From positions 1-56,010 of the IMG/VR virus record IMGVR_UViG_3300012005_000008: DNA of 56,010 bases. One strand, given 5' to 3'. The notes under the pieces were generated by a model. That model saw only the letters and a list, made by a program, of their open reading frames with translations, made no database searches and was not told the DNA's origin. Positions 3,881 through 50,345 of the stretch are shown one piece after another; within the stretch, counting starts at the first letter, position 1; every line of letters starts with the position of its first letter. This DNA is from a virus. The position numbers were made by a program, and so were the translations under genes.

Positions 3881-3909
3881 ATTATAATCTGACTAAGACT
3901 AGAAGTAAA
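3881..3909 (-). promoter_or_regulatory. Early-type (sigma70-like) promoter TTTACT-N17-TATAAT
   Basis: On the minus strand, TTTACT (plus 3904-3909) is followed by exactly 17 bases and TATAAT (plus 3881-3886). It sits about 38 bases ahead of the membrane-protein start at 3843. Three more copies of this arrangement occur in the window. Confidence 0.75.
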
Positions 3910-37545: not shown

Positions 37546-39612
37546 ATGCCAACAATTGCTTACACGATTAACTGGTCAGACGGCACGTTAAAACAACCGT
37601 TTACCTTAAATGGACAGTCGATAGACTCATCGTCTACGTCTTTGACCTTAACGGGTAAGGGCACTGTTAGTTGGGGTGAAGCGGCCCAGGAAAATTTCCT
37701 ACACCTGCTAGAAAACTTTGCATCGTTAAATTCTCCACCATCTCATCCAACAACTGGGCAGACGTGGTATAATGCTACAGACGGCTACCTCAAGATCTAT
37801 AATACCAACAATGCGTGGGAAGATATAGCTAAACGTAGGATTGACTCAGCAACAACTCCTGGTGGAACTCATTATCCAGGAGATTTGTGGTATGATACGG
37901 TTAATGATAAGCTTAAAGTTTATAATAAGGCTGGTCAGTGGGTGATCCAAGCAGGAACAACAACCCCAACGCCGGTACCTTCGCCTACGCCAACTCCTAC
38001 GCCAACTCCTTCGCCGACGCCAGCACCAACTCCTTCGCCTTCGCCTACTCCTTCGCCGACGCCAGCACCGTCACCGACACCGGTTACTCCTCCACCGATC
38101 CCACCAGCTACTCAGCCGTATGGCCAATCTGGTTCATTCTCCCTGGTCTTCCAGGATGAATTCGACGGAACTAGCCTCGATGCAACAAAGTGGAATGATC
38201 ATATCTGGTATCTTAACTCTGATCCAACTATCAACTATACAGTTGAAAGCGGTTCATTGAAGATCTGGCCTGCTGCTGGATTTGTTAACCGTACGATCGA
38301 CACCGATGGTAAATTCTACGCGACCTATGGTTTCTTTGAAATCGATGCTAAGCTGCCACGTGGTAAGGGTGTTTGGCCAGCTTTCTGGCTGTATAACCAT
38401 GATCAACCAGATCCATATCGACCAGAGATCGACATCATGGAAGCATATCCAGGCGGCGGACCAGACACTGGCTGGGGTGACTCGCAGCTCAGGGCTAATA
38501 ACTACGCCGTGACTATCTGGACGGGTCCTCCTGGGGCATCTGCTGGAACGCTCAAGCTGAGTGATTCTCCTATCGGTTTCATCTCTGATCTTTCGACAAA
38601 TTTCCACAAGTACCAATGTAAGTGGGAATCAAACAAGCTAACATTCTACTTTGATGGTGTTCAGTTCTACACCGTTAACGTTTCGATGCCAGCTCGTATG
38701 TACATGCTGTTGGATCTTTACTTTGGAAGCTCTTCGGGTACTCCAGACGAAACAACGCCGTTGGGATCGTCAAATTCGTTCGAGATTCGTTATGCTCGAG
38801 CATGGTCGCTCGGAAGTACTTCACCAACGCCATCTCCAGCACCTTCGCCTACACCAACGCCAGCTCCTACACCAGCTCCTACACCAGCTCCATCTGGTAC
38901 AGGACCGCTTGGACAGAACTCCGCGTTGTACACTCAGACCTTCTCTGATGACTTCACTGGTTCGTCACTGAACTCTACTAAGTGGATCAACCACAGTTGG
39001 TATGCTGCAAGTGACTCTGTTATTAACTATGGTGTTGCTAACGGTTCACTGAGCATCTGGCCAGCGTCTGGATTCGTATCACGTACAATCAACACTGATA
39101 CGAAGTTCACCCAGACTTATGGTTACTTTGAAGCAGTTATGGGATTGCCGTCTGGTAAAGGACCACGCCCGGTCTTTAACTTGCTTAATCACCTTGATTC
39201 AGATGCTCGTGTACCGATCATCGCGATCATGGAAGCATACCCTGGCGCAGGTATCGGAAGTGGATGGAGCAATTCTTCGCTCGACTCTACTGACTACGCG
39301 ATGACAGCTTACACGAACGCTAACAATGGTTCATTGGTCGGTTCATCTAGGCTCAGCACAACGTCAGTAACTGGCGGAAATCTCTCTCAATCATTCCACA
39401 CGTATGGAGTGAAATGGTCGACGGTTGCATTGGTGTTCTACTTTGACGGACAACAGGTCTACTCGCTCAGTACCTCAGCGTTTACTGATCCTATGTTCAT
39501 CAACTTCGAGCTCGACTTCGGTAGCGCTTCTGGAACACCAGATGGAACGACTCCAACAGGTCCGACCAACTCGTTTGAGATTCAGTACGTTAGGGCTTGG
39601 CAGTTCGTATAA
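37546..39612 (+). CDS. Tail-fibre-like protein with two GH16 domains
   Basis: A 688-residue protein. Residues 1-135 are a virion-attachment-type domain with two short repeats (GQTWYNATDGYLKIY and GDLWYDTVNDKLKVY). A Thr/Pro/Ser linker spans ~138-190. The first glycoside hydrolase 16 domain (~195-425) starts VFQDEFDG and has the intact active site EIDIME (Glu294, Asp296, Glu299). A second linker at ~426-452 leads to a second GH16 domain (~460-688), where the active site reads IIAIME (Ile558, Ala560, Glu563) and so lacks the nucleophile and the Asp. GH16 enzymes cleave beta-1,3/1,4 glucans and other surface polysaccharides. The protein is probably a receptor-binding fibre with depolymerase activity. 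Confidence 0.88.
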   Translation: MPTIAYTINWSDGTLKQPFTLNGQSIDSSSTSLTLTGKGTVSWGEAAQENFLHLLENFASLNSPPSHPTTGQTWYNATDGYLKIYNTNNAWEDIAKRRIDSATTPGGTHYPGDLWYDTVNDKLKVYNKAGQWVIQAGTTTPTPVPSPTPTPTPTPSPTPAPTPSPSPTPSPTPAPSPTPVTPPPIPPATQPYGQSGSFSLVFQDEFDGTSLDATKWNDHIWYLNSDPTINYTVESGSLKIWPAAGFVNRTIDTDGKFYATYGFFEIDAKLPRGKGVWPAFWLYNHDQPDPYRPEIDIMEAYPGGGPDTGWGDSQLRANNYAVTIWTGPPGASAGTLKLSDSPIGFISDLSTNFHKYQCKWESNKLTFYFDGVQFYTVNVSMPARMYMLLDLYFGSSSGTPDETTPLGSSNSFEIRYARAWSLGSTSPTPSPAPSPTPTPAPTPAPTPAPSGTGPLGQNSALYTQTFSDDFTGSSLNSTKWINHSWYAASDSVINYGVANGSLSIWPASGFVSRTINTDTKFTQTYGYFEAVMGLPSGKGPRPVFNLLNHLDSDARVPIIAIMEAYPGAGIGSGWSNSSLDSTDYAMTAYTNANNGSLVGSSRLSTTSVTGGNLSQSFHTYGVKWSTVALVFYFDGQQVYSLSTSAFTDPMFINFELDFGSASGTPDGTTPTGPTNSFEIQYVRAWQFV
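37966..38106 (+). repeat. Low-complexity repeat encoding Thr/Pro/Ser linker
   Basis: Short CC(A/T)AC(C/G)-type repeats encode an alternating Pro/Thr/Ser/Ala linker. Similar arrays occur at 38823-38895 and 40120-40415 in the fibre genes. Such repeats can change in length by slippage. Confidence 0.85.
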
Positions 39613-39630
39613 TAGCGATCGGCTATATAA

Positions 39631-39667
39631 AAACCAGCGGATTAAAACCCGCTGGTTTTTTATTTTT
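39631..39667 (+). terminator. Rho-independent terminator
   Basis: A 10-base-pair stem AAACCAGCGG / CCGCTGGTTT around an 8-base loop, followed by a T-rich tract. It stands directly after the first fibre gene and before a new late promoter, separating the two fibre transcripts. Confidence 0.92.
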
Positions 39668-39672
39668 AGACC

Positions 39673-39681
39673 AATAAATAG
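39673..39681 (+). promoter_or_regulatory. Putative late promoter AATAAATAG
   Basis: TAAATA-type motif 23 bases ahead of the second fibre gene, immediately after the terminator. Confidence 0.55.
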
Positions 39682-39704
39682 TCTTATAAAAATGATAGGA
39701 TATC

Positions 39705-41459
39705 ATGGCAACAGATTATGTACTTCATTGGTCAGATGATGCGATCAAGAAACCATTTAAGTTGAATCAACAAGCGGTTAATACCACACTAACCTCTTTG
39801 ACTCTTAACGGTAAGGGCGCGATTAACTGGGCTGAATCAATACAAACAGACCTGATTCAATTGCTAGAGCATTTTGCGTCGACAACTCCACCAAAGAATC
39901 CAACTGTTGGACAGCTATGGTTTAACACGTCTGACAAGAAGATGCGTGTATACTGGCGCTCTACGTGGAATACTGTAGGAAATTACAGGATAGATTCTGC
40001 AACACCACCAACCAATCCACTTCCAGGTGATTTTTGGTATGATACGGTTAGAGATGCGTTAAAGGTTCAAACAGTAAAGGGAACTTGGATTTTAGCGAGT
40101 GTAGAGGGTAATCCTGTCCAAACACCAACTCCGGTACCAACGTTGGTTCCGGTACCGGCCCCTCCCCCTACACCTACACCTACTCCAACACCGGTGACAA
40201 CATTTCCACCAACTCCAGCGCCCACCCCATCACCTACTCCAGCGCCAACGGTTACGCCAGCACCAACTCCAGCACCAACTCCGCCACCAACTCCGTTTAC
40301 GCCAGCACCAACTCCAGCACCCACCACATCGCCGGTGCCTACACCTGTGCCTGTGCCTACACCTGTGCCTACACCAGCACCATCCCCTGCTCCAGCACCA
40401 TCGCCTACACCAACACCTGGAACTGTTACTCCTTACGGGCCAAACCCGAGTGGATATCAGCTGGTGTTTCAGGATGAATTCGATGGATCATCGATTGATC
40501 TTTCGAAATGGAACACCCACCTATGGTACCTCAGCGAACCAGCTTTAACTAATTTCGCTGTCACTGGCGGAGCACTTAAACTTTGGCCGATTAAAGATTC
40601 TACTGGCGCTTTTGAACCACGTCATTTGAGCACAGATGGTAAATTTTACATTACGTATGGTTATGTAGAGGTGGAAGCTCAACTGCCTATTGGAAAGGGT
40701 GTCTATCCATCTTTATGGATGTATAATCGTGATGATATCAATCCAATAGAGATTGATTATATGAATGCATTTCCAGGGGCAGTTTCTCAAGGGTTTGCTA
40801 CAACGAATTTTGAACCAGTAACTTATAATATGTCAACGTGGTCTGGCAGCACACTAGAATCTTCTTATAATTATAATGTTGGAATAAAGCTAAGTTCAGG
40901 ATTCCACAAATATGGAGTTCAGCGTGACTCTACAGGAACTGCATTCTGGTATGATGGCAATCAGATCTATAAATCTAGCTATGTTTTACCGCAACGAATG
41001 TTCTTATTGATCAGCTTACTTTATGGTAGCGTTTCTGGGACTCCTGATGATTCTACCCCTCTTGGAAGCTTTAACTCATTCACGATTAATTACATTAGGG
41101 CATGGACAGGCAGCAATGTAGCCACAACTAACACAATGCAAGCTGCTCATTATCTAGATACAGGTGTTGATTTAGTCGGTTTTTATTCGATACAAGGAGG
41201 GGGTACATTAGTTCCATCTACGTTCGGTGGTCGACAGATCTTACTGATAGGAGATAACAATGGTGAGATGACCTTCATCTTAGAAGGCGCAAATTTACCG
41301 TCTAATATCTTTACATCTATTCAGATAAATGGTAAAACTTTCCCTTCTCAACAAGATAATTGCACTATATCTTACACGGCTTCTTCAACAGTTTGGAAGT
41401 GGTTGTCTGATTCTTCTGGATTAGTTGCTGGAACATTCTATTCTATCATTATAACATGA
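39705..41459 (+). CDS. Tail-fibre-like protein with one degenerate GH16 domain
   Basis: A 584-residue paralogue of the preceding fibre. The N-terminal attachment-type domain (1-130, [15 protein letters not shown]) is similar. The Pro/Thr/Val linker is long (~133-245). The GH16 domain (~250-465) begins VFQDEFDG, and its active site reads EIDYMN (Glu349, Asp351, Asn354): the acid/base Glu is replaced by Asn, so hydrolysis is probably lost and sugar binding may remain. A further 115-residue beta domain ends the protein and could be the distal tip. The stop overlaps the ATG of a 2OG oxygenase. Confidence 0.85.
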
Positions 41460-42112: not shown

Positions 42113-42126
42113 AATCCATGCTTTCT

Positions 42127-42135
42127 CTTAAATAA
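42127..42135 (+). promoter_or_regulatory. Putative late promoter CTTAAATAA
   Basis: TAAATA-type motif ahead of the putative lysis genes, about 64 bases from the start at 42199. Confidence 0.4.
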
Positions 42136-42198
42136 TCTCTATCATGATGTACTATTCTTTTCAGTTCGTGGCGTACATCTGCTATATGGAGATTTACC

Positions 42199-42633
42199 AT
42201 GGATATGTCAAAAATTGGAGTTTACTGGGACTTGCTCCGCAAGGGTCAAGAAGTAGCGGATCCGGAGAAGTGGAAGGCGCACCAAATCACGGCGACGATC
42301 GTCGGAGGATTAATCGTTGCGCTAATTAACCTAGCCAAATCTTATGGATATGACCTACCTATCACGCCCGATACGGCTAACTCTCTCGGTGTTGGTGTCA
42401 TCGCTGCTGTTAATGTCGTGCTCACTATTACAACCAGCAAAAAAGCCGGTTTGCTTCCAGCCAAACCTAACGGAACAGCAGTGCCAGCAGTGGTGGAACA
42501 ACCACCAACCCCACAGTTCAGCGATACAGTGCAGCCCGTCGATAGCCCCGCAGCGGAACCTACGACAGCAAGCGATCAACCAGCAGTGGAACCAACAAAG
42601 CCAGCAGTCGATGATTACATCTACCGCGGATAA
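42199..42633 (+). CDS. Holin-like membrane protein
   Basis: A 144-residue protein starting after TATGGAGATTTACC. Two hydrophobic segments (ATIVGGLIVALINLA, about 33-47, and LGVGVIAAVNVVLTIT, about 63-78) are joined by a short polar loop. A basic turn (SKKAG) and a Pro/Ala/Thr-rich cytoplasm-type tail follow. Two short transmembrane helices fit a class II holin. A lipoprotein-like frame is nested in another phase within the gene. No endolysin gene was recognised next to it. Confidence 0.6.
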   Translation: MDMSKIGVYWDLLRKGQEVADPEKWKAHQITATIVGGLIVALINLAKSYGYDLPITPDTANSLGVGVIAAVNVVLTITTSKKAGLLPAKPNGTAVPAVVEQPPTPQFSDTVQPVDSPAAEPTTASDQPAVEPTKPAVDDYIYRG

Positions 42634-42724
42634 TGAATCAATCAAGGACCTACTAAGCGGTAACCTCACCGATTATCTGGACTCAATTGATGGCGTCTTC
42701 GTCGGCGTCAAGTGTCACTATTAA
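42344..42724 (+). CDS. Nested lipoprotein-like ORF (possible outer-membrane spanin)
   Basis: A 126-codon frame, shifted relative to the holin-like gene and reaching 91 bases beyond its stop. It has a basic start (SRPIRLT), a hydrophobic stretch (LSVLVSSLLL) and a lipobox ending at Cys26 (LLMSC), then a Gln/Pro-rich body. This is the layout of Rz1-type o-spanins, which are often nested in another frame. The final 31 codons, outside the overlap, look like normal coding sequence and fill an otherwise empty gap. Against it: no clear ribosome-binding site, and hydrophobic helices often yield Leu-rich shadow frames. Confidence 0.35.
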   Translation: MDMTYLSRPIRLTLSVLVSSLLLMSCSLLQPAKKPVCFQPNLTEQQCQQWWNNHQPHSSAIQCSPSIAPQRNLRQQAINQQWNQQSQQSMITSTADNESIKDLLSGNLTDYLDSIDGVFVGVKCHY

Positions 42725-42745
42725 CTTAACTAAAGGAAATACAAA

Positions 42746-43012
42746 ATGGAACAGTTTTTCATGATCGTCAAGATGGTCGCAGCGCTGTACCCGGTGTTGA
42801 TGCAAATCATCAAGTCAATTGAAGAAGCCATGCCTGCTGCTGGGCAAGGCCAAGCCAAGCTCGCGCTTATCAAGACTACGCTCGAAGGAGCTTACACCAC
42901 GATGGGTGATGCTCAGGTAAAATTTGAAGCCATCTGGCCGATGCTTCAGGGCGTCATCTCGGCGATGGTTTCGATGTACAACGCAGCTGGCGTTTTCAAG
43001 AAGTCTGCGTAA
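42746..43012 (+). CDS. Small hydrophobic hypothetical protein, possible lysis accessory
   Basis: An 88-residue protein preceded by AAAGGAAAT. The N-terminal hydrophobic helix (FMIVKMVAALYPVLMQII) and a second weaker one (MLQGVISAMVSMY) suggest membrane association. It follows the holin-like gene in the same direction, so a lysis role is possible but not shown. The 3' end overlaps the convergent next gene by 17 bases. Confidence 0.6.
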   Translation: MEQFFMIVKMVAALYPVLMQIIKSIEEAMPAAGQGQAKLALIKTTLEGAYTTMGDAQVKFEAIWPMLQGVISAMVSMYNAAGVFKKSA

Positions 43013-43487
43013 ACAGCTGAGGCTGTAATAGCATTAAATCGGCATTAAAGCTTGGATCCCAGGGGAATTTTCCCTGGGCGTCTGGCCATACTAGCTGCAG
43101 CGCATCAACGTTTTTATTTGCCCTCAAATTAGCAATATTAAGATATCCATCGGTCATCTCTGGATCGATTCGCTTCAATACTGAAGGCATGTTAGCGATC
43201 CCCTCAACAGGTTCATCAATCGGCAATTTTCCAGCTTTAAGCATCTCAGCTGCGGTGTTGAGAATGATTTGAGCGTGTTCCATGGGAAGTGAGAACACAA
43301 CCAGCTCTGGTAGTCCTTTATCAGCTAAACCGACGGTGTATGCCATGGAGATGAACTGGCCTGGTAAGATAGGATCTATCTCAGTACCAATTACAGCATG
43401 ACCAACATTCTTAATGATCTCATCAAGGTTATCATGAAATGCCTTGACACCTTGGGAACAGCACATGCAATCATGTCCATGCTTCAT
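42996..43487 (-). CDS. DUF4262-like protein
   Basis: A 163-residue protein. AVIGTEIDPILPGQFISMAY, then TVGLADKGLPELVVF (about residues 32-67), matches the DUF4262 pattern of small bacterial proteins of unknown function. A CMCC cluster near the N-terminus (residues 7-10) may bind metal. It is coupled by a 4-base overlap to the HD-domain gene. Confidence 0.65.
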   Translation of the reverse strand: MKHGHDCMCCSQGVKAFHDNLDEIIKNVGHAVIGTEIDPILPGQFISMAYTVGLADKGLPELVVFSLPMEHAQIILNTAAEMLKAGKLPIDEPVEGIANMPSVLKRIDPEMTDGYLNIANLRANKNVDALQLVWPDAQGKFPWDPSFNADLMLLQPQLFTQTS

Positions 43488-43981
43488 TTTAGGCTCCTAT
43501 TGAATGCTTGTTGGATAAATTCTGGATCTTTTGCTGATTCTGTACAAAGATATTGTTGGTTGGGATATTTCCCCACGCGACCGAGGTCCAGCCGATCAGC
43601 GTCCCAACAAACCTGGACAGTTGGTTCGGCCATCGTCATTCCATCGCTGTGAAATGTCATCGCGTGAACCAACATCTCCATCTCATGATCTTCAATATCA
43701 AAATATATTCCACGTAACAAAACAGCACCACCAGCTGCTCGCTCACCATGTTCAGGATCAGAACCATCATTTTCACGAACGTGATCATGTAAAAAACTAA
43801 AAAGCTTGATCACGTCTTCAGAGATGTAGATGGATGGATCGCGAGCTCGTTCGGCTTCTGCCAACTTCCTGGCGTTGGTATAGACGCGAGACCAATGAGG
43901 AACACCATGAATACCAAGACGAAACTCACTCATAAGGTACGAGCGCAACTCAGTGAACTTGATCATGTTTTCGTATAGCAA
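43484..43981 (-). CDS. HD-domain phosphohydrolase-like protein
   Basis: A 165-residue protein with an HD-type metal site: His29 (GVPHWSRV), His65-Asp66 (FLHDH), and a late acidic motif DADRLDLGRVG (127-137). The related bacterial proteins share the DADRLDLGRVG ending and are presumed nucleotide phosphohydrolases. It may act on host or phage nucleotides. The start could also be the internal ATG at residue 6, since the longer form overlaps the upstream gene by 32 bases. Confidence 0.75.
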   Translation of the reverse strand: MLYENMIKFTELRSYLMSEFRLGIHGVPHWSRVYTNARKLAEAERARDPSIYISEDVIKLFSFLHDHVRENDGSDPEHGERAAGGAVLLRGIYFDIEDHEMEMLVHAMTFHSDGMTMAEPTVQVCWDADRLDLGRVGKYPNQQYLCTESAKDPEFIQQAFNRSLK

Positions 43982-44423
43982 TAAGTGTAGATCGATTTGA
44001 GTTAAGTAAAATATCCAAGAATTCTGGTTTAACTATAAACCCAGCATCTTGATAGATCTGTGATTGATCTTCTTTGATCCTAGCATAAAGATTATATTCA
44101 TTTATGTCAGCGATCTTGATTAGGTCTTTGAGAATCGATTGAACTCTATCTATACCATAGATGGGAGACCAGATCTTGTGGATAGTGATGTCTTTTTCAT
44201 CACCGACGATTTCTTCCACGGTGGGGATGACTTTACCACTCATGAGAATTTCTTTGGAATGAACGGCTGCGTAAACTCCATTTTTTGAGTATGTGCGATA
44301 TCGATTTTTTCCTAGATTGTAAGTCATAGGATCATCAAAAGATAGCATCTTAAATCCAGAGTCTGTCAAATAAAAAAATATTTTATTTGCAAACACCGAG
44401 TGAAGCTGCTGTAAGGTCGCCAT
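43950..44423 (-). CDS. Hypothetical protein
   Basis: A 157-residue protein from ATG 44423 (MATLQQLHSVFANKIFF); an ATG two codons upstream is also possible. Mixed alpha/beta, with IYQDAGFIVKPEFLDILL near the end. A remote resemblance to acetyltransferase ends was considered but no acetyl-CoA loop is visible. It lies behind a TTTACA-N17-TATAAT promoter and heads the HD/DUF4262 transcript. Confidence 0.6.
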   Translation of the reverse strand: MATLQQLHSVFANKIFFYLTDSGFKMLSFDDPMTYNLGKNRYRTYSKNGVYAAVHSKEILMSGKVIPTVEEIVGDEKDITIHKIWSPIYGIDRVQSILKDLIKIADINEYNLYARIKEDQSQIYQDAGFIVKPEFLDILLNSNRSTLIAIRKHDQVH

Positions 44424-44462
44424 GATCATCCTCGTATTCTAACGGGAAATTCCAATGAGCTA

Positions 44463-44491
44463 ATTATATCTAGAAACTAACAGCTTGTAAA
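44463..44491 (-). promoter_or_regulatory. Early-type promoter TTTACA-N17-TATAAT
   Basis: The minus strand reads TTTACA (plus 44486-44491), 17 bases, then TATAAT (plus 44463-44468), about 40 bases before the gene at 44423. Confidence 0.75.
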
Positions 44492-44501
44492 CAAGAGTTT
44501 A

Positions 44502-45083
44502 CTATAGTTCTTGAGTAATCTTCAAATGCTCTTGAATTCGGTCACGCAATCCAGTTAATCCGCAAGCAGGACACAAGCAACCCCACACTAACCTAGCTCC
44601 TTCGCTCTCGGTACATCGTTTATGATTGCGAGAATCTATCGAGCTTTGCTGTAGCGATCCTAACACGCCATGGGCTTCAACGTCGATCAACCCAGCCCGA
44701 GATGGGTGAGGATCCCAAACCATCTCTCCATCTTTGGCTACGACCACGTGGTTGACGGTTCCTCGACCATTCGCTCGATGCTTAGCTGTACGTTCGGTTG
44801 GACCCACGAGCATGTGATAGGGATTTATTGAACGGACTGATCCTAGTTGAAATGCAGGAATTTCAGTGTAGATTAAATTATGATGTTTACCGAGGTAACC
44901 GTTTAAGATGTTGGAGTAAGATCCATAACCGTCAAATAATTTAAACTTGAACTTTTCATCGCTAGTAAGAAGCTCAAGTTCACACTGTGGAGGGAGCGTA
45001 TTTGGATCGATCTCAAGGATGCAAGCAACGGCTGTCTGCCAACAATTTCCTATGGTGGTGTCTGATTGTGTATACTGTTTCAT
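44502..45083 (-). CDS. C39/papain-like cysteine peptidase-like protein
   Basis: A 193-residue protein with GNCWQTAVACILE (Cys14 on the first helix), NHVVVAKDG (His112) and WDPHPSRAGL (Asp124), the Cys-His-Asp order of a papain-fold family widespread in phages. The substrate is unknown. An extra C-terminal part contains CTES, CLCPAC and may bind metal. The gene is coupled by ATGA overlap to the upstream coiled-coil gene. Confidence 0.75.
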   Translation of the reverse strand: MKQYTQSDTTIGNCWQTAVACILEIDPNTLPPQCELELLTSDEKFKFKLFDGYGSYSNILNGYLGKHHNLIYTEIPAFQLGSVRSINPYHMLVGPTERTAKHRANGRGTVNHVVVAKDGEMVWDPHPSRAGLIDVEAHGVLGSLQQSSIDSRNHKRCTESEGARLVWGCLCPACGLTGLRDRIQEHLKITQEL

Positions 45084-45907
45084 TTATCTTTAATCGCATC
45101 AGCCGAGGAAGGACTTGACGTTGGTGTAGGCGGAATCAATGCATTTTTCTTAGCGATTAAATCGTTCTTTATCGCATCGGCGGTGCTATCGATCGTTCCG
45201 AATGATTCAGCCCTAGTCTTTTCTGCTGCTACTTGAATGTTCAAAGTAGCAATAGCTGCTTCATTGATGTTCTTTTGATCCATCAACCGATTTATGGACG
45301 CATGCAAGGAAGCAAGCTGATCAGCGATCTTTTCATTCTCCTTCGAGATGACAGCTGCTTTATCGGTTAGCACTTTGGCCATAGCTAAGGCTGCCCCCGA
45401 TGTTGCATCCTTGGCTTTGATACGCTCCGTTTCCAAGTCGCTGATGTGATTATCAATCGACATCGCTACGCTATCAGCTGTGATCTTTGGATCATTGATC
45501 GCTACAAGAGCAACTTTAGCTCGATGTGCATCATCGGTAATAAGATCCTTCAACCGATCAGATACTTTCATCACCTCTAGGAAGGTAGATGTTTTTCCAG
45601 CAAAAACCTTTGTTTGCAAGTATTCTTTCAGATCCTTTTGATCTGTTGGGATCGGCACCACTGGTGCCCGAGGTGGCATCGCCGGTGGTGGTGATGGAGT
45701 CGGTGGTGCAGTCGATGGTTCTTGTGGTGTTGGCATGACTTCTGGTTCCTTAGGAGTGATAGCTCCCATTGGATTTAACGTCGGCTCAAGAGCGGCCAAA
45801 CCTTGCTGAATTGATCGCAATGTTTTTGAGTTCTCGAGGGTTGGAGGCCAAGTTGGTTTTGGTTGGGCCATAGTATCATCTTTCTTGAAAAATTTTAATA
45901 TGTTCAT
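45080..45907 (-). CDS. Coiled-coil protein with proline-rich segment
   Basis: A 275-residue protein. It has a short basic/aromatic N-terminus (MNILKFFKKDD), a Pro-rich region (residues ~50-90, PTPSPPPAMPPRAP), then ~150 residues of Ala/Lys/Glu/Asp helices that probably form a coiled coil, and a Pro/Ser tail. No transmembrane helix or family recognised. It shares a transcript with the C39-like gene. Confidence 0.6.
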   Translation of the reverse strand: MNILKFFKKDDTMAQPKPTWPPTLENSKTLRSIQQGLAALEPTLNPMGAITPKEPEVMPTPQEPSTAPPTPSPPPAMPPRAPVVPIPTDQKDLKEYLQTKVFAGKTSTFLEVMKVSDRLKDLITDDAHRAKVALVAINDPKITADSVAMSIDNHISDLETERIKAKDATSGAALAMAKVLTDKAAVISKENEKIADQLASLHASINRLMDQKNINEAAIATLNIQVAAEKTRAESFGTIDSTADAIKNDLIAKKNALIPPTPTSSPSSADAIKDK

Positions 45908-46012
45908 GGTTCTCTCTCAAAGAAGGTCTTCGGTAAGAAGAAATTAACAGGTAGAACTCTTCACTCTAGCTTTGAGCTTGTTCCATTTTATATCAAACTT
46001 CAAGCAATAGAA

Positions 46013-46042
46013 ATTATAACATAGTTCTTTGAGCTGTGTATG
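46013..46042 (-). promoter_or_regulatory. Possible sigma70-like promoter
   Basis: Minus-strand TATAAT (plus 46013-46018) with CATACA 18 bases upstream (plus 46037-46042). It stands ahead of a ~105-base leader of the coiled-coil gene. The -35 match is weak. Confidence 0.3.
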
Positions 46043-46427
46043 GCTTATTGCTTGTTGCCGAATATTTCATTGTGGCGAGAGTAATTATTCTTTCGACACT
46101 ATTGATGAAGACGCCCCTAGCGTAACGCTTAGCGGTTCTTCCGGTCAATTTGGTACATTGGTTAAAGATGCAATAAGAGTAGAAAACTCCTGGAGCTGAG
46201 ATGTCAACCTTTGACCCCCAATCCATTCCATCTTTACCGTGTCCGTCTTCACAATACAGGTCAATCATTCCAACTATCTTCCCGCTCTGAACTATCTGCC
46301 AGGCGATGTGCATTCGATTACTATCATCGCCTCCTCCATAAGTTCGACGGATCCCGGTTGTACCGTTAAAAGCTTTTGCAATTGCAAGGGCCGCATCGTT
46401 CAAACTTAGGCGTTTCTTGTGTTTCAT
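46014..46427 (-). CDS. Hypothetical protein
   Basis: A 137-residue basic protein (MKHKKRLSLNDAALAIAKAF) with a Gly-rich loop (RRTYGGGDDSNRMH) and several Cys. No family recognised. A TATAAT-like element (plus 46479-46484) lies upstream in the 129-base gap that also holds the porin terminator. Confidence 0.55.
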   Translation of the reverse strand: MKHKKRLSLNDAALAIAKAFNGTTGIRRTYGGGDDSNRMHIAWQIVQSGKIVGMIDLYCEDGHGKDGMDWGSKVDISAPGVFYSYCIFNQCTKLTGRTAKRYARGVFINSVERIITLATMKYSATSNKPYTAQRTML

Positions 46428-46515
46428 GATTCTCAGCAGGCGGTAAGGGTAGAGGTGAAGTTGGTTTAAGACAGAGGAATTATAATCTAAGTTTTTCCAA
46501 AAAGAATTAGTAGCT

Positions 46516-46546
46516 AATAAAAAGGTAGCCGAAGCTACCTTTTATT
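46516..46546 (-). terminator. Rho-independent terminator after the porin gene
   Basis: Minus strand: AAAGGTAGC, loop TTCG, GCTACCTTT, then TTATT. The perfect stem, stable UUCG-type tetraloop and T tract lie 11 bases after the porin stop. The plus strand also ends in TTTTATTT, so it may work both ways. Confidence 0.9.
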
Positions 46547-46556
46547 TACTATCAGT

Positions 46557-47495
46557 TTAGAACTTGTGGCGGATGCCAAAGTTAACAACTTTATCAGTAG
46601 ATGCCGCATCATACTTGGTTTCGCCGAGCGAAGCATACAAGTTTGTACGAGTCGACAACGAGTGAGTCATCCCCAAAGCAAGCTGAGTGGCTCCAATATT
46701 AGTATCCGAGCGATCTTGAAGCTTGACCATCGAACCCATGACGGTATCAACTGAAGTGATCGGTGCTGAAACGCCCAGCAAATAGTTGCGCGATTTCAGT
46801 CCACCGTTGTCGTTGTCAGCAAAAGCAACATGGGCCTTGACGATGTGCAGGTCATAGGTTCCACCGATGAGCATCGTACGGTTAGTAACTCCAGCAACAT
46901 CGGCGTGGTTATACGCGCCAGCTAACTTCAATGAACCCAGATCGACCGAGGTAGAAGCTCCAACGGTATTGCCATAACGGAGACCGTTCAGGGACTCCCC
47001 GAAGCTATAAGCCATCTCGCCAGAGACCGGACCCATGGAGGTGGAGTAGTTAACTGTATTGCTAACGCTACGACCACCGTCATTCATCAAATGAGTAGCA
47101 TCTCCTGCTAGACCGGCTTGAAACGGATCCAGGTCATACAAGGTATTATAGATCGGTGTAAGCTGGCGTCCAAATTTTACCGTTCCTAGAGTTGTGCTCG
47201 AGAGACCAACCCAAGATTGACGGTTGAACAGTCCATTTCCATAATGGTTGTCGAACGAGCCGGTGTCTGCGCTGAAACCAGCCTCCAGCCCAAAGATCGC
47301 GGCATTCCCGCCACCAAGGTCTTCCTTACCACGAAAGCCCAAACGGCTACCAGATTGAAGTCCGCTATTGAGCCCGGTAACTCCAGAGCTATGATTTACA
47401 CCCATGTCCACGATACCGTAGATGGTGGTTGATGATTGTGCAAAAGCGGTGGCAGAAAGTCCGGCCAAAGCAAGTGCGAGTGCTATCTTTTTCAT
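46557..47495 (-). CDS. Outer-membrane porin (Gram-negative porin, Burkholderiales type)
   Basis: A 312-residue porin. The start at 47495 gives a clean signal peptide (MKKIALALALAGLSATAFA, cleavage before QSSTT) behind AGGAAA; a longer frame adds 16 unlikely residues. Family hallmarks are SSTTIYGIVDMGV, SRLGFRGKEDLGGG, FNRQSWVGLSSTTLGTVKFG and the C-terminal GIRHKF with terminal Phe for outer-membrane insertion. This is the trimeric 16-strand porin type abundant in Betaproteobacteria; it is slightly short for the family. It has its own promoter-like element and terminator, so it is an independent accessory unit acquired from a host. It may alter permeability or replace a phage receptor. Confidence 0.93.
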   Translation of the reverse strand: MKKIALALALAGLSATAFAQSSTTIYGIVDMGVNHSSGVTGLNSGLQSGSRLGFRGKEDLGGGNAAIFGLEAGFSADTGSFDNHYGNGLFNRQSWVGLSSTTLGTVKFGRQLTPIYNTLYDLDPFQAGLAGDATHLMNDGGRSVSNTVNYSTSMGPVSGEMAYSFGESLNGLRYGNTVGASTSVDLGSLKLAGAYNHADVAGVTNRTMLIGGTYDLHIVKAHVAFADNDNGGLKSRNYLLGVSAPITSVDTVMGSMVKLQDRSDTNIGATQLALGMTHSLSTRTNLYASLGETKYDAASTDKVVNFGIRHKF

Positions 47496-47532
47496 AAAAT
47501 TTCCTTTTTGATGTTTGGTTGCTACAAAGAAG

Positions 47533-47561
47533 ATTATAAACAAAAGTTTCCTATAAGTATG
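47533..47561 (-). promoter_or_regulatory. Promoter-like element of the porin gene
   Basis: The minus strand reads CATACT (plus 47556-47561), 17 bases, then TATAAT (plus 47533-47538), about 38 bases ahead of the porin ATG. The -10 is perfect; the -35 matches the TTTACT of the other early-type promoters at 4 of 6 bases. Confidence 0.5.
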
Positions 47562-47600
47562 GTTTACTAGCGTAAACTGTATCTTAAAAGATACACAATC

Positions 47601-48230
47601 TTAAACTATTTGAGAGAACCAGTTGCGGAAGTCGCCTGGGTAGTCATCCGGGTTGTACATCCACAGACCTTCCCCGCAGATGTGAAACCGTACACATTGT
47701 AGCTCTCCGACCAAGACGGCCGAAGTTAACGAAATGAATCGTTCATTAGCTGGGTAGATGACCAATGTTCCCTTTTGCGGCTGGAACCCAAAGTTATAGA
47801 CTGGAAATTCGAGTTTCCCGCCTAATACTTGCGTGGAAATATCAAACGGAGGAGAATCTTGATAGTCTTTTAACCAAAGAAGTCCGGTTAGGTCTCGATC
47901 TTTTACACGAAGCCATTTCTTTCTCTTAAAGACCGCGTTCTCGCAATGCGGTGGTTCTGCTACCTTCCCGGTAGCAGGAAACTGTTGGAAAACTAGATGC
48001 TCGGTACCTCGATACTTAAATCCAGTATAGTGCTCCTGAAGCTTTGGAATGATTGGCTTATAGATGCTGAAGATCTCATCTTCTATCATCGTGTGGTGAC
48101 GTTCCATTGCTAAGTCTTCACCGTCTTCATTTTTATTCGGGAGAACACGAACCGCGGCCGCGATCCGATCACAAGCCGCGCCATCCAATAGATCTTGAAA
48201 CACCAGGAACGGTGATTTAATTTGTGACAT
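47601..48230 (-). CDS. 2OG-Fe(II) oxygenase-like protein with incomplete iron site
   Basis: A 209-residue protein with the general P4H-type order: PPHCEN (His95, Glu97) where HxD is expected, GGKLEFPVYNF, GTLVIYPANERF, and VRFHI (Arg181) for 2-oxoglutarate. The distal iron-binding His appears replaced by Ser167 (FISLTSAV in place of an HxV-type segment). It may be inactive, use another ligand, or have another function. A TATAAATA on the minus strand lies 35 bases ahead of its ATG, so it is probably late. Confidence 0.6.
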   Translation of the reverse strand: MSQIKSPFLVFQDLLDGAACDRIAAAVRVLPNKNEDGEDLAMERHHTMIEDEIFSIYKPIIPKLQEHYTGFKYRGTEHLVFQQFPATGKVAEPPHCENAVFKRKKWLRVKDRDLTGLLWLKDYQDSPPFDISTQVLGGKLEFPVYNFGFQPQKGTLVIYPANERFISLTSAVLVGELQCVRFHICGEGLWMYNPDDYPGDFRNWFSQIV

Positions 48231-48264: not shown

Positions 48265-48272
48265 TATTTATA
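48265..48272 (-). promoter_or_regulatory. Putative late promoter TATAAATA (minus strand)
   Basis: Exact late octamer on the minus strand, 35 bases ahead of the gene at 48230. It overlaps the last codons of the LRR-like gene. Confidence 0.55.
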
Positions 48273-48810
48273 GCTGTGCGTACTCATCCAACCCGGCATC
48301 TTCTAGCTCACGCTGGGCATCAATCACTCCAGCCTTCCCTTCACCGAGGTGTTTATTGAGGATATTTTCTACAACATTGTTATCCAACCGTATGCCGTTG
48401 ATTCCCTTAATTAACAACAACCCAAGAACGTGTGATTTGATAGGATTATTGTGACAAGAAAATTTTCCTTTGATAGCGTTAACTATCTTGTGGATATTCT
48501 TTAGCGAGGTCAATTTATTAAGGTTACAATCAAAATATCCACCAACTTCCTTAGGAGCGCCTTCTAGCGAGGTCAATTTATTATCGTGGCAATTAAAATC
48601 TAAACCAACTTTCTTTGGAGCTCCTTCTAGTGAGGTCAATTTATTATGGCCGCAATAAAAATATCCATCAACTTTCTTAGGAGCACCTTCAAGTGAGGTC
48701 AATTGATTATCGGCGCAATAAAAATCTCCAACTTCCTCAGGAGCTCCTTCTAAGGAAGATTTCTTCCAATGAATATCATTCGATTCTTTTAGTAAAGTTT
48801 TGAGTTTCAT
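48268..48810 (-). CDS. LRR-like repeat protein with capsid-targeting-like N-terminus
   Basis: A 180-residue protein. MKLKTLLKES is followed by four near-identical 20-21-residue repeats (form SLEGAPKKVGGYFDCNxNKLT) at residues ~19-102 and a fifth diverged unit. The C-terminus (LGEGKAGVIDAQRELEDAG, then EYAQL) matches the end of the protein at 21272-21955. The repeats form a short solenoid, probably for binding. It is the last gene of the long minus-strand operon, coupled by ATGA to the RimK-like gene. Confidence 0.75.
   Translation of the reverse strand: MKLKTLLKESNDIHWKKSSLEGAPEEVGDFYCADNQLTSLEGAPKKVDGYFYCGHNKLTSLEGAPKKVGLDFNCHDNKLTSLEGAPKEVGGYFDCNLNKLTSLKNIHKIVNAIKGKFSCHNNPIKSHVLGLLLIKGINGIRLDNNVVENILNKHLGEGKAGVIDAQRELEDAGLDEYAQL
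48505..48756 (-). repeat. Tandem ~63-bp coding repeats (LRR-like units)
   Basis: Four consecutive units of 60-63 bases with high DNA similarity (recurring GAGGTCAATT(T/G)ATTAT on the plus strand). They encode the SLEGAP repeats. They lack the identical-repeat/unique-spacer pattern of CRISPR. Confidence 0.9.
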
Positions 48811-50345
48811 TTCTCGTCATCATCCGAAACGGTAAACAACTCGCTCTCTGGAACGTCAGCGTCCACGTCTGGGTTCTTCGCGATCAACACAGGAAGTCCC
48901 AGTTGCTCCAAAACGTTGCGGCCGATCAACACCTCATACTTCATGTTTGAACGATCGGTCAGCGTGAACTCGACCTGATTGAAACGCTTGCCGTGAATGG
49001 TAACATCGAGGCAAACAACTGGACGACGGGTTGAGGCGCCATTGTGAACGTTCTTGATCTTCACGACACGCTTAACGGCGGTCTTAAAGGTAACGTCGCC
49101 GCGCTTGAACTTAACCGATCCTTCATCGAAGTTGATCATGTCAGCGTGCAAGGAGCAAGTTGCTGCTCCGGTGTCAATACGAGCATCAACTGTTTGGTTC
49201 GGTGCCATGATGCGGTGAACGGTAACTGGCTCTACCTCTTGAATTGCTTCTGATGGAATTGAGTCTGGCGCAACTGACGCTGGGAGTTCAGCTCCAGGAT
49301 CTCCTGGACCATCGCTAGGGATGCTTGGTTCATCATTGGTCGGTTGCCAATTATTAATACCACCTAAATTGCCACCATCACCGATCGCAAATTTAATAAC
49401 GTCCTTTGGTAGATCTCGGTCTGGCCAATCTTTGGAGATAGCTTCAAGACCAGGCGATCCATTTACCTCAAGGATGATGATCTCCTTGTCTTCGCCTTCA
49501 CCGACTAAAATATAGTCAATGGCACAAAAGTTACATCCGAATAGCTCGACGATCCTGCGACCGATCGCTACCTCGGCATCTCCTGGGGTGTATGGTTCTG
49601 TCTCAGATCCTAGGTGGCTATTGGTTCGGAACTCATCCTTGTCCTTAGCTTGACCACGAAGGTTAGCTGCAAGAACTTGATCACCGATCATTATGATGCG
49701 GGCTGATTGCTCATGCTTGATGAACTCTTGGATCATGAACTCGATCTCTTCCTTAAGCAGCATCTGTGCAACGCCAACCAAAGATGAGCGGGAGTCGATC
49801 TTCATAACGCCGATACCATGAGTACCACGCAACGTCTTAACGACAGTTGGATACTTAAGGCGTCCAGCCTCCTCCATGAAGCCTACAACCTTCTCGACAT
49901 CATCTGGATTCTGAAGTGTAAAGCTATAAGGAGTTTTGATACCAGCGGTCGATAGGGTAACTTGTGACTTTAACTTATCATTACACAGCTCCATCGACTC
50001 GACTGAATTGAGAATGGTGGCTCCGCAGTCCTTCATGCGCTGCAGCATTGAAATCTTCATCTCGAGGTTATATTCATTAAGCCGCGGAATAACAACGGTG
50101 TCTGCATCTATCTCAAGCTTCGTGATCGCTCCAACTTCACCGGTGTCACGATTATCCCTAGCGGCAACGTAGATCTCTGACGCTAGCTTTTGTGTCTCTT
50201 CTTGACCGTCAATACCTTCGGCTATGATACAATGTGTGACATCAAGAATTTGAGCATCGATGCCCATCCCCTCGGCGGCTTTTTTCAGCGACTTGGGAAC
50301 GAAATTGCTTGGTTCGGCCGTGAAGATGATTACTTTCTTACCCAT
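48807..50345 (-). CDS. RimK-like ATP-grasp ligase fused to RimB-like retropepsin domain
   Basis: A 512-residue two-domain protein. Residues ~1-320 are a RimK-type ATP-grasp ligase: pre-ATP domain, YPTVVKTLRGTHGIGV with Lys170 and Gly-rich loop, QEFIKHE, and the metal-binding EVNGSPG (293-299). A Pro/Ser/Asp linker (~325-375) follows. Residues ~376-490 match the retropepsin-like Zn-protease family of RimB: VDARIDTGAATCSLHA with DTGA at 392-395, later LIGRNVLEQLGLPVL. RimK adds glutamates to the end of ribosomal protein S6, and RimB is the partner protease; in bacteria they are separate. Overlaps of 4-8 bases link it to neighbours. Confidence 0.88.
   Translation of the reverse strand: MGKKVIIFTAEPSNFVPKSLKKAAEGMGIDAQILDVTHCIIAEGIDGQEETQKLASEIYVAARDNRDTGEVGAITKLEIDADTVVIPRLNEYNLEMKISMLQRMKDCGATILNSVESMELCNDKLKSQVTLSTAGIKTPYSFTLQNPDDVEKVVGFMEEAGRLKYPTVVKTLRGTHGIGVMKIDSRSSLVGVAQMLLKEEIEFMIQEFIKHEQSARIIMIGDQVLAANLRGQAKDKDEFRTNSHLGSETEPYTPGDAEVAIGRRIVELFGCNFCAIDYILVGEGEDKEIIILEVNGSPGLEAISKDWPDRDLPKDVIKFAIGDGGNLGGINNWQPTNDEPSIPSDGPGDPGAELPASVAPDSIPSEAIQEVEPVTVHRIMAPNQTVDARIDTGAATCSLHADMINFDEGSVKFKRGDVTFKTAVKRVVKIKNVHNGASTRRPVVCLDVTIHGKRFNQVEFTLTDRSNMKYEVLIGRNVLEQLGLPVLIAKNPDVDADVPESELFTVSDDDEK

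Follow-up and report, generated by a model that had tools for sequence, protein, structure and literature searches.

What would a large T4-like phage gain from a complete outer-membrane porin of the Burkholderiaceae type? The question is raised by a gene on the minus strand of IMGVR_UViG_3300012005_000008, a complete IMG/VR virus record of 56,010 bases that was analysed in full and is called the window here. The initial annotation had described a complete porin with a signal peptide and a C-terminal phenylalanine, and this description was borne out by profile search and fold prediction.

46557..47495, minus strand: porin coding sequence, 312 aa, Porin_4, Omp32-like (open reading frame, profile and fold model)
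47439..47495, minus strand: signal peptide, residues 1-19, cleaved between AFA and Q (by inspection)

The reading frame runs from an ATG at 47495 to a stop at 46557. Residues 8-297 matched Pfam Porin_4 (PF13609) at E = 4.2e-48, with a score of 165 bits against a cut-off of 27, and the Porin_1 profile matched as well (E = 8e-9). By inspection, the N-terminus MKKIALALALAGLSATAFA, followed by Q, is a standard type I signal peptide, and in the alignment the start of the mature porin coincides with residue 1 of Omp32; the C-terminal residue is Phe, aromatic as for BAM. An AlphaFold2 model (the porin plus 13 relatives) predicted 16 barrel strands (mean pLDDT 83, pTM 0.77), with the constriction loop L3 at residues 113-142 and helices within it. 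The closest solved protein by sequence was Omp32, the anion-selective porin of Delftia/Comamonas acidovorans (E = 1.3e-19), and the closest fold found by Foldseek was the Omp32 malate complex 2FGQ (E = 2.4e-21), followed by Burkholderia Omp38. In Omp32, we take the arginine cluster R38/R75/R133 together with E58 to be the pore residues. R51, R92, and E71 of the phage porin align with R38, R75, and E58, while the site of R133 is occupied by Ser143, which Arg142 adjoins; since the R133 equivalent is a serine, the selectivity of the phage porin may differ from that of Omp32. The likeness to Omp32 (PDB 1E54, 2FGQ) thus extends to fold, family, and the equivalents of R38, R75, and E58, at 28-29% structural identity, whereas the phage protein differs in being encoded by a phage, in its shorter surface loops, and in the Ser at the R133 site.

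The carrier was assigned from its other genes. The window contains T4-type genes for gp46/gp47 (SbcCD-like), a gp55-type late sigma factor, and the baseplate hub and wedge, and no tRNA gene was found in it by search. By the baseplate wedge, the best isolate matches were jumbo phages of 280-490 kb at 35-43% identity, among them XacN1, CM1, RAS14, and PA5oct, and the nearest long contig was G001 (345 kb), whose wedge is 60% identical and which carries a T4 Gp23 capsid gene (E = 8e-94). Its gp46/47, gp55, and baseplate genes, together with the gene order that it shares with a Gp23-bearing jumbo genome, mark the carrier as a jumbo T4-like myovirus, probably of a Burkholderiaceae host, and its T4-type genes and jumbo-phage kin set it apart from lambdoid temperate carriers of the PA-2 Lc type. 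Judged from its kin, the 56 kb are probably a fragment of a genome of about 345 kb in full, and from the same kin we infer that the phage is lytic. A 9,964-base contig from another metagenome, L017 (IMGVR_UViG_3300001534_000239), is 100% identical to the window over wedge residues 1-444, so the same phage was probably sampled in two data sets.

All proteins of the window were compared with those of two relatives, G001 and G024 (135 kb). Most genes at 2-41 kb and at 47.6-56 kb are collinear with orthologues in both, while the genes between 41456 and 47495 have no orthologue in either, and the matching gap in the relatives holds just one or two small genes. Because the flanks are conserved and the genes between them are not, the porin sits in a variable island, bordered as follows.

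42113..47600, no strand: variable cargo island with the porin, about 5.5 kb, genes without orthologues in the two syntenic relatives
47601..48230, minus strand: conserved phage gene adjoining the porin upstream, bounding the island on the right, with 72% and 68% identity to its counterparts in the relatives
46014..46427, minus strand: 137-aa gene directly downstream of the porin, function unassigned, with its own TATAAT
37546..41459, plus strand: two tail-fibre-like genes with GH16 glycosidase domains (domain matches), left of the island

In G001, the orthologue of the gene at 47601-48230 is inverted relative to its neighbours. The tandem GH16 fibre proteins possibly degrade polysaccharide, judging from their domains. 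Farther right, at 48807-50345 (minus strand), a RimK-like ATP-grasp ligase is fused to a C-terminal zinc-protease-like domain (PF05618), a fusion kept in both relatives at 52-54% identity, and at 48268-48810 (minus strand) a small leucine-rich-repeat-like protein has SLEGAPKKV..LTSLEGAP repeats and weak PHROGs matches only.

The gene order bears on whether the porin could be host DNA joined to the phage during assembly. Only its absence from relatives points that way: a search for PF13609 in 36 related viral records found none, an absence that the initial annotation had listed as part of what would count against a phage-borne porin. This absence is to be expected of cargo, because even the nearest relatives share only about 60% identity in a conserved protein and the island is variable. 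As far as gene order can tell, an assembly chimera was rejected, and its probability is negligible, since both flanks of the porin keep the gene order of two independent phage contigs, which excludes host contamination; in addition, the island contains a phage-type early promoter motif, and no bacterial gene flanks the porin. The claim that the porin is cargo of a large T4-like phage is therefore upheld by the T4-type genes and by flanks conserved in jumbo-myovirus contigs, the cargo unit consisting of this one gene.

The initial annotation had further given the gene its own promoter and terminator. The signals around it are listed here.

46520..46543, minus strand: intrinsic terminator with a UUCG tetraloop, 13 nt past the porin stop (folding)
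47533..47538, minus strand: TATAAT, candidate -10, 37 nt upstream of the porin ATG, with a poor -35
48265..48272, minus strand: TATAAATA, T4-type late promoter-like, preceding the conserved gene at 47601-48230
44463..44492 (listed at 44468), minus strand: GTTTAC-N18-TATAAT, early promoter-like, within the island (motif)

The terminator, GGTAGC-TTCG-GCTACC-TTTTT, is strong, the region 46505-46560 having a folding energy of -17 kcal/mol (z = -3.6 against shuffles); a scan placed it on the plus strand because its stem is symmetrical. For the promoter, the TATAAT is indeed present upstream, but the hexamer 17-18 nt before it is a poor -35 and the TATAAT was not among the hits of a promoter scan of the window, which were no more numerous than in shuffles. 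A promoter of the porin's own is plausible, and transcription could also read through from the TATAAATA at 48272 via the gene at 47601-48230 into the porin. Late-type elements of this kind occur at 2436, 36605, and 48272. The GTTTAC-N18-TATAAT motif, which recurs at 3886, 21248, and 25792 (minus strand), is read as the phage's putative early promoter. The two motifs together would form a readable early/late promoter code of the phage.

To examine the origin of the porin, host genomes were sampled around Undibacterium terreum (the genome of L005), 399 of them at the level of its order and 393 at that of its family. The best bacterial match had 49-51% local identity (about 45% end to end), which rules out that a sampled host donated the gene recently. 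A tree of 76 porins, most of whose host rows were picked by similarity to the phage porin (P0001), placed the latter inside the Burkholderiaceae porins (SH-aLRT 89). The earlier suggestion of a Burkholderiales origin thus stands as far as the family, although the search turned up no close donor. The end branch of the phage porin is 0.75 against a median of 0.21, and its frame is intact and its invariant residues are conserved; an unsampled donor would account for the long branch, as would long or rapid evolution of the gene in phages. No close copy turned up in IMG/VR by peptide scan, no PHROGs family matched the porin, and its only match among INPHARED phages was an unannotated 9.9-kb faecal scaffold at 27% identity. 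A single clade of the phage porin and all 30 viral rows was rejected (AU p 2e-67, whole-set test), and since it forms no single clade with the other phage porins, the porin is most likely a separate acquisition.

The initial annotation had considered such cargo unusual for a large T4-like phage, a view that the wider survey did not bear out. Scanning IMG/VR with the profile and two conserved peptide patterns gave 57 other contigs with Porin_4-like genes (54 of them encoding more than 300 aa), in about 30 lineages at 80% identity; most of the smaller contigs have neither terminase nor Gp23, and their phage status comes from the IMG/VR call and shared gene neighbourhoods. Gp23 was added as a marker because the phrog_2 terminase was found in just five porin contigs. 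Four carriers (G834, G837, G840, and G861) are phages of 192-344 kb with both terminase and T4 Gp23 genes, so that Porin_4 occurs in no fewer than four further large phages with Gp23. As the porins of these other giant T4-related viruses, at least four in number, differ from that of the window, supplying or replacing host surface pores looks like a recurring habit of viruses and not a freak.

L192:1851-4502: porin immediately after the T4-type major capsid gene Gp23
L147:9998-14339, L189:10001-12099, L169:8849-11482, L166:8587-10859: porin one to three genes from TctA, TctC, or DctP
L161:9968-11792, L151:10001-11779, L164:10001-11801: porin, then an OmpA-domain protein of 179-194 aa
L136:9938-11718, L187:10001-11800: porin, then an OmpA-domain protein of 179-194 aa

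Counted by lineage, the neighbours of viral porins were OmpA-domain genes in five, TctA in one, TctC in two, DctP in one, and AhpC in two. TctA lies near the porin in L147 (E = 1.5e-56), DctP in L166 (E = 1.6e-42), and TctC in L169 (E = 1.4e-16), with weak matches in L178 and L189. The OmpA partners of the five lineages are 43-68% alike, their porins are scattered over the tree, and some of the pairs are followed by AhpC or rubrerythrin. In many viral contigs, a terminator-like hairpin stands directly 3' of the porin.

The surface loops distinguish the porin of the window. They were compared with those of the 37 best-matching host porins, chosen by score, and, to remove the bias of that choice, with those of 32 complete porins selected with the family profile in five host genomes. 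The exposed loops add up to 72 residues; none of the 37 score-chosen porins has fewer than 84, and of the 32 family-chosen ones, 31 have 87 or more and the remaining one has 63; in total surface loop length, the phage porin is shorter than 68 of the 69 bacterial porins compared. Each of the 37 has a longer L1 (15 residues or more, compared with 12), L5 (8 or more, compared with 7), and L8 (10 or more, compared with 8) than the phage porin, and in the comparison with the 32, its L1 was again the shortest, while L5, L6, and L8 were matched or undercut by a few. The periplasmic turns equal those of the hosts, and L3 is of median length among the 37. Other phage porins are untrimmed, with most median loop lengths at or above those of the hosts, so loop trimming is not a general trait of phage porins. 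The trimming argues against the receptor decoy that had been among the roles first proposed and is compatible with receptor replacement.

We favor, tentatively and at a little under an even chance, a role in uptake, in which an Omp32-like channel supplied by the phage maintains or reshapes the solute uptake of the infected cell. The porin would be transcribed during infection from its own -10, from late-promoter read-through out of the upstream gene, or from both, and its product would be exported by Sec and, after insertion by BAM, form a trimer in the outer membrane. Where synthesis of host porins is shut off or these are unsuitable, an anion-favouring channel would sustain or reshape the influx of small solutes such as organic acids, and its short surface loops would let it stay open yet give other phages or bacteriocins little to attach to. 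For this role speak the intact 16-strand barrel and constriction loop, the reduced exposed loops alongside unaltered turns and an L3 inside the range of the hosts, the nearest structures being Omp32, one of them malate-bound, with R51, R92, and E71 kept, and the independent phage lineages that pair a porin with carboxylate-uptake genes, besides the five with OmpA-domain genes; gene context in other phages appears to favor uptake. Against it, no uptake partner gene lies beside the porin in the window, the carboxylate neighbourhoods may be chance co-capture because TctC and TctA are very common in these hosts, and candidate host genomes hold up to 27 porins each, so such hosts would hardly need another for bulk uptake. 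Superinfection exclusion by receptor replacement, in which the phage porin displaces or dilutes host receptor porins and its short loops bind no phage, is the main rival, a possibility that we consider distinctly less probable than not. The porin's L1, L5, and L8 are trimmed while the channel parts are kept, the gene lies near tail-fibre genes, and the PA-2/Lc porin is a precedent from general knowledge; however, the other phage porins lack such trimming, the classical carriers are temperate and so profit from an exclusion that lasts, and there is no sign of repression of host porins. Uptake and exclusion are compatible, since both would be served by a channel that lacks receptor loops.

It is improbable that the porin serves outer-membrane maintenance, with the phage replacing envelope proteins after host synthesis stops so that the cell outlasts a long infection. 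The porin and OmpA-domain pairs of the five lineages, some with AhpC or rubrerythrin, do resemble general upkeep genes, but the island in the window has no OmpA-type or stress gene, and this role is nearly identical to uptake and hard to separate from it by sequence. A passenger gene from the host, kept without benefit to the phage and not yet lost, would explain why the porin occurs in none of the relatives examined and lies in a variable island. We regard this as very improbable: the gene has kept its frame and invariant residues along a long branch, its GC content (50%) is near that of the phage, its third-position GC (also 50%) is inside the range of the phage's conserved genes, and it has its own terminator.

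Phage-borne porins as such are already known. Lc of phage PA-2 and NmpC of prophage DLP12 are enterobacterial porins in temperate lambdoid phages, and Lc reportedly replaces host porins and excludes porin-dependent phages. The present gene resembles them as a general porin carried as phage cargo but differs in its Burkholderiaceae-type porin and its T4-like jumbo carrier. The RNA ipeX derives from the DLP12 porin transcript (PMC12197685). Marine viral scaffolds carry a viral OmpL beside glnK-amtB (ISME J 2020, PMC8115048), likewise a phage-borne outer-membrane porin, there within a nutrient-uptake cassette, although the Bacteroidetes OmpL differs in porin type and host. UniProt holds two auto-annotated porins of uncultured Caudovirales (A0A6J5L4P1 and A0A6J5LP82) with a porin fold at 21-22% identity, for which no study was found. 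In the open-access literature, we found no publication dealing with porins of jumbo or T4-like phages; two papers on aquatic and huge phages make no mention of porins, and a 2026 jumbo-phage review does not name them as cargo. PA-2, DLP12, the viral OmpL, and the UniProt entries are thus the known cases, while the recurrence of porins in Gp23-bearing jumbo phages, the pairing with OmpA or carboxylate genes, and a loop-trimmed copy were not found described in that literature.

A broader pattern can be put forward as a minority possibility: T4-like jumbo phages of Betaproteobacteria may repeatedly capture host porins, with or without OmpA or carboxylate partners, and so control outer-membrane permeability during infection, the copy described here perhaps having been stripped of its receptor loops to serve both uptake and exclusion. 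Porins govern the entry of nutrients and antibiotics into Gram-negative cells and are often phage receptors. Should it be routine for large virulent phages to bring porins of their own, infected cells would differ in what they take up and in which phages can co-infect them, and for the approximately 30 phage porin lineages, uptake, exclusion, and maintenance predict distinct phenotypes.
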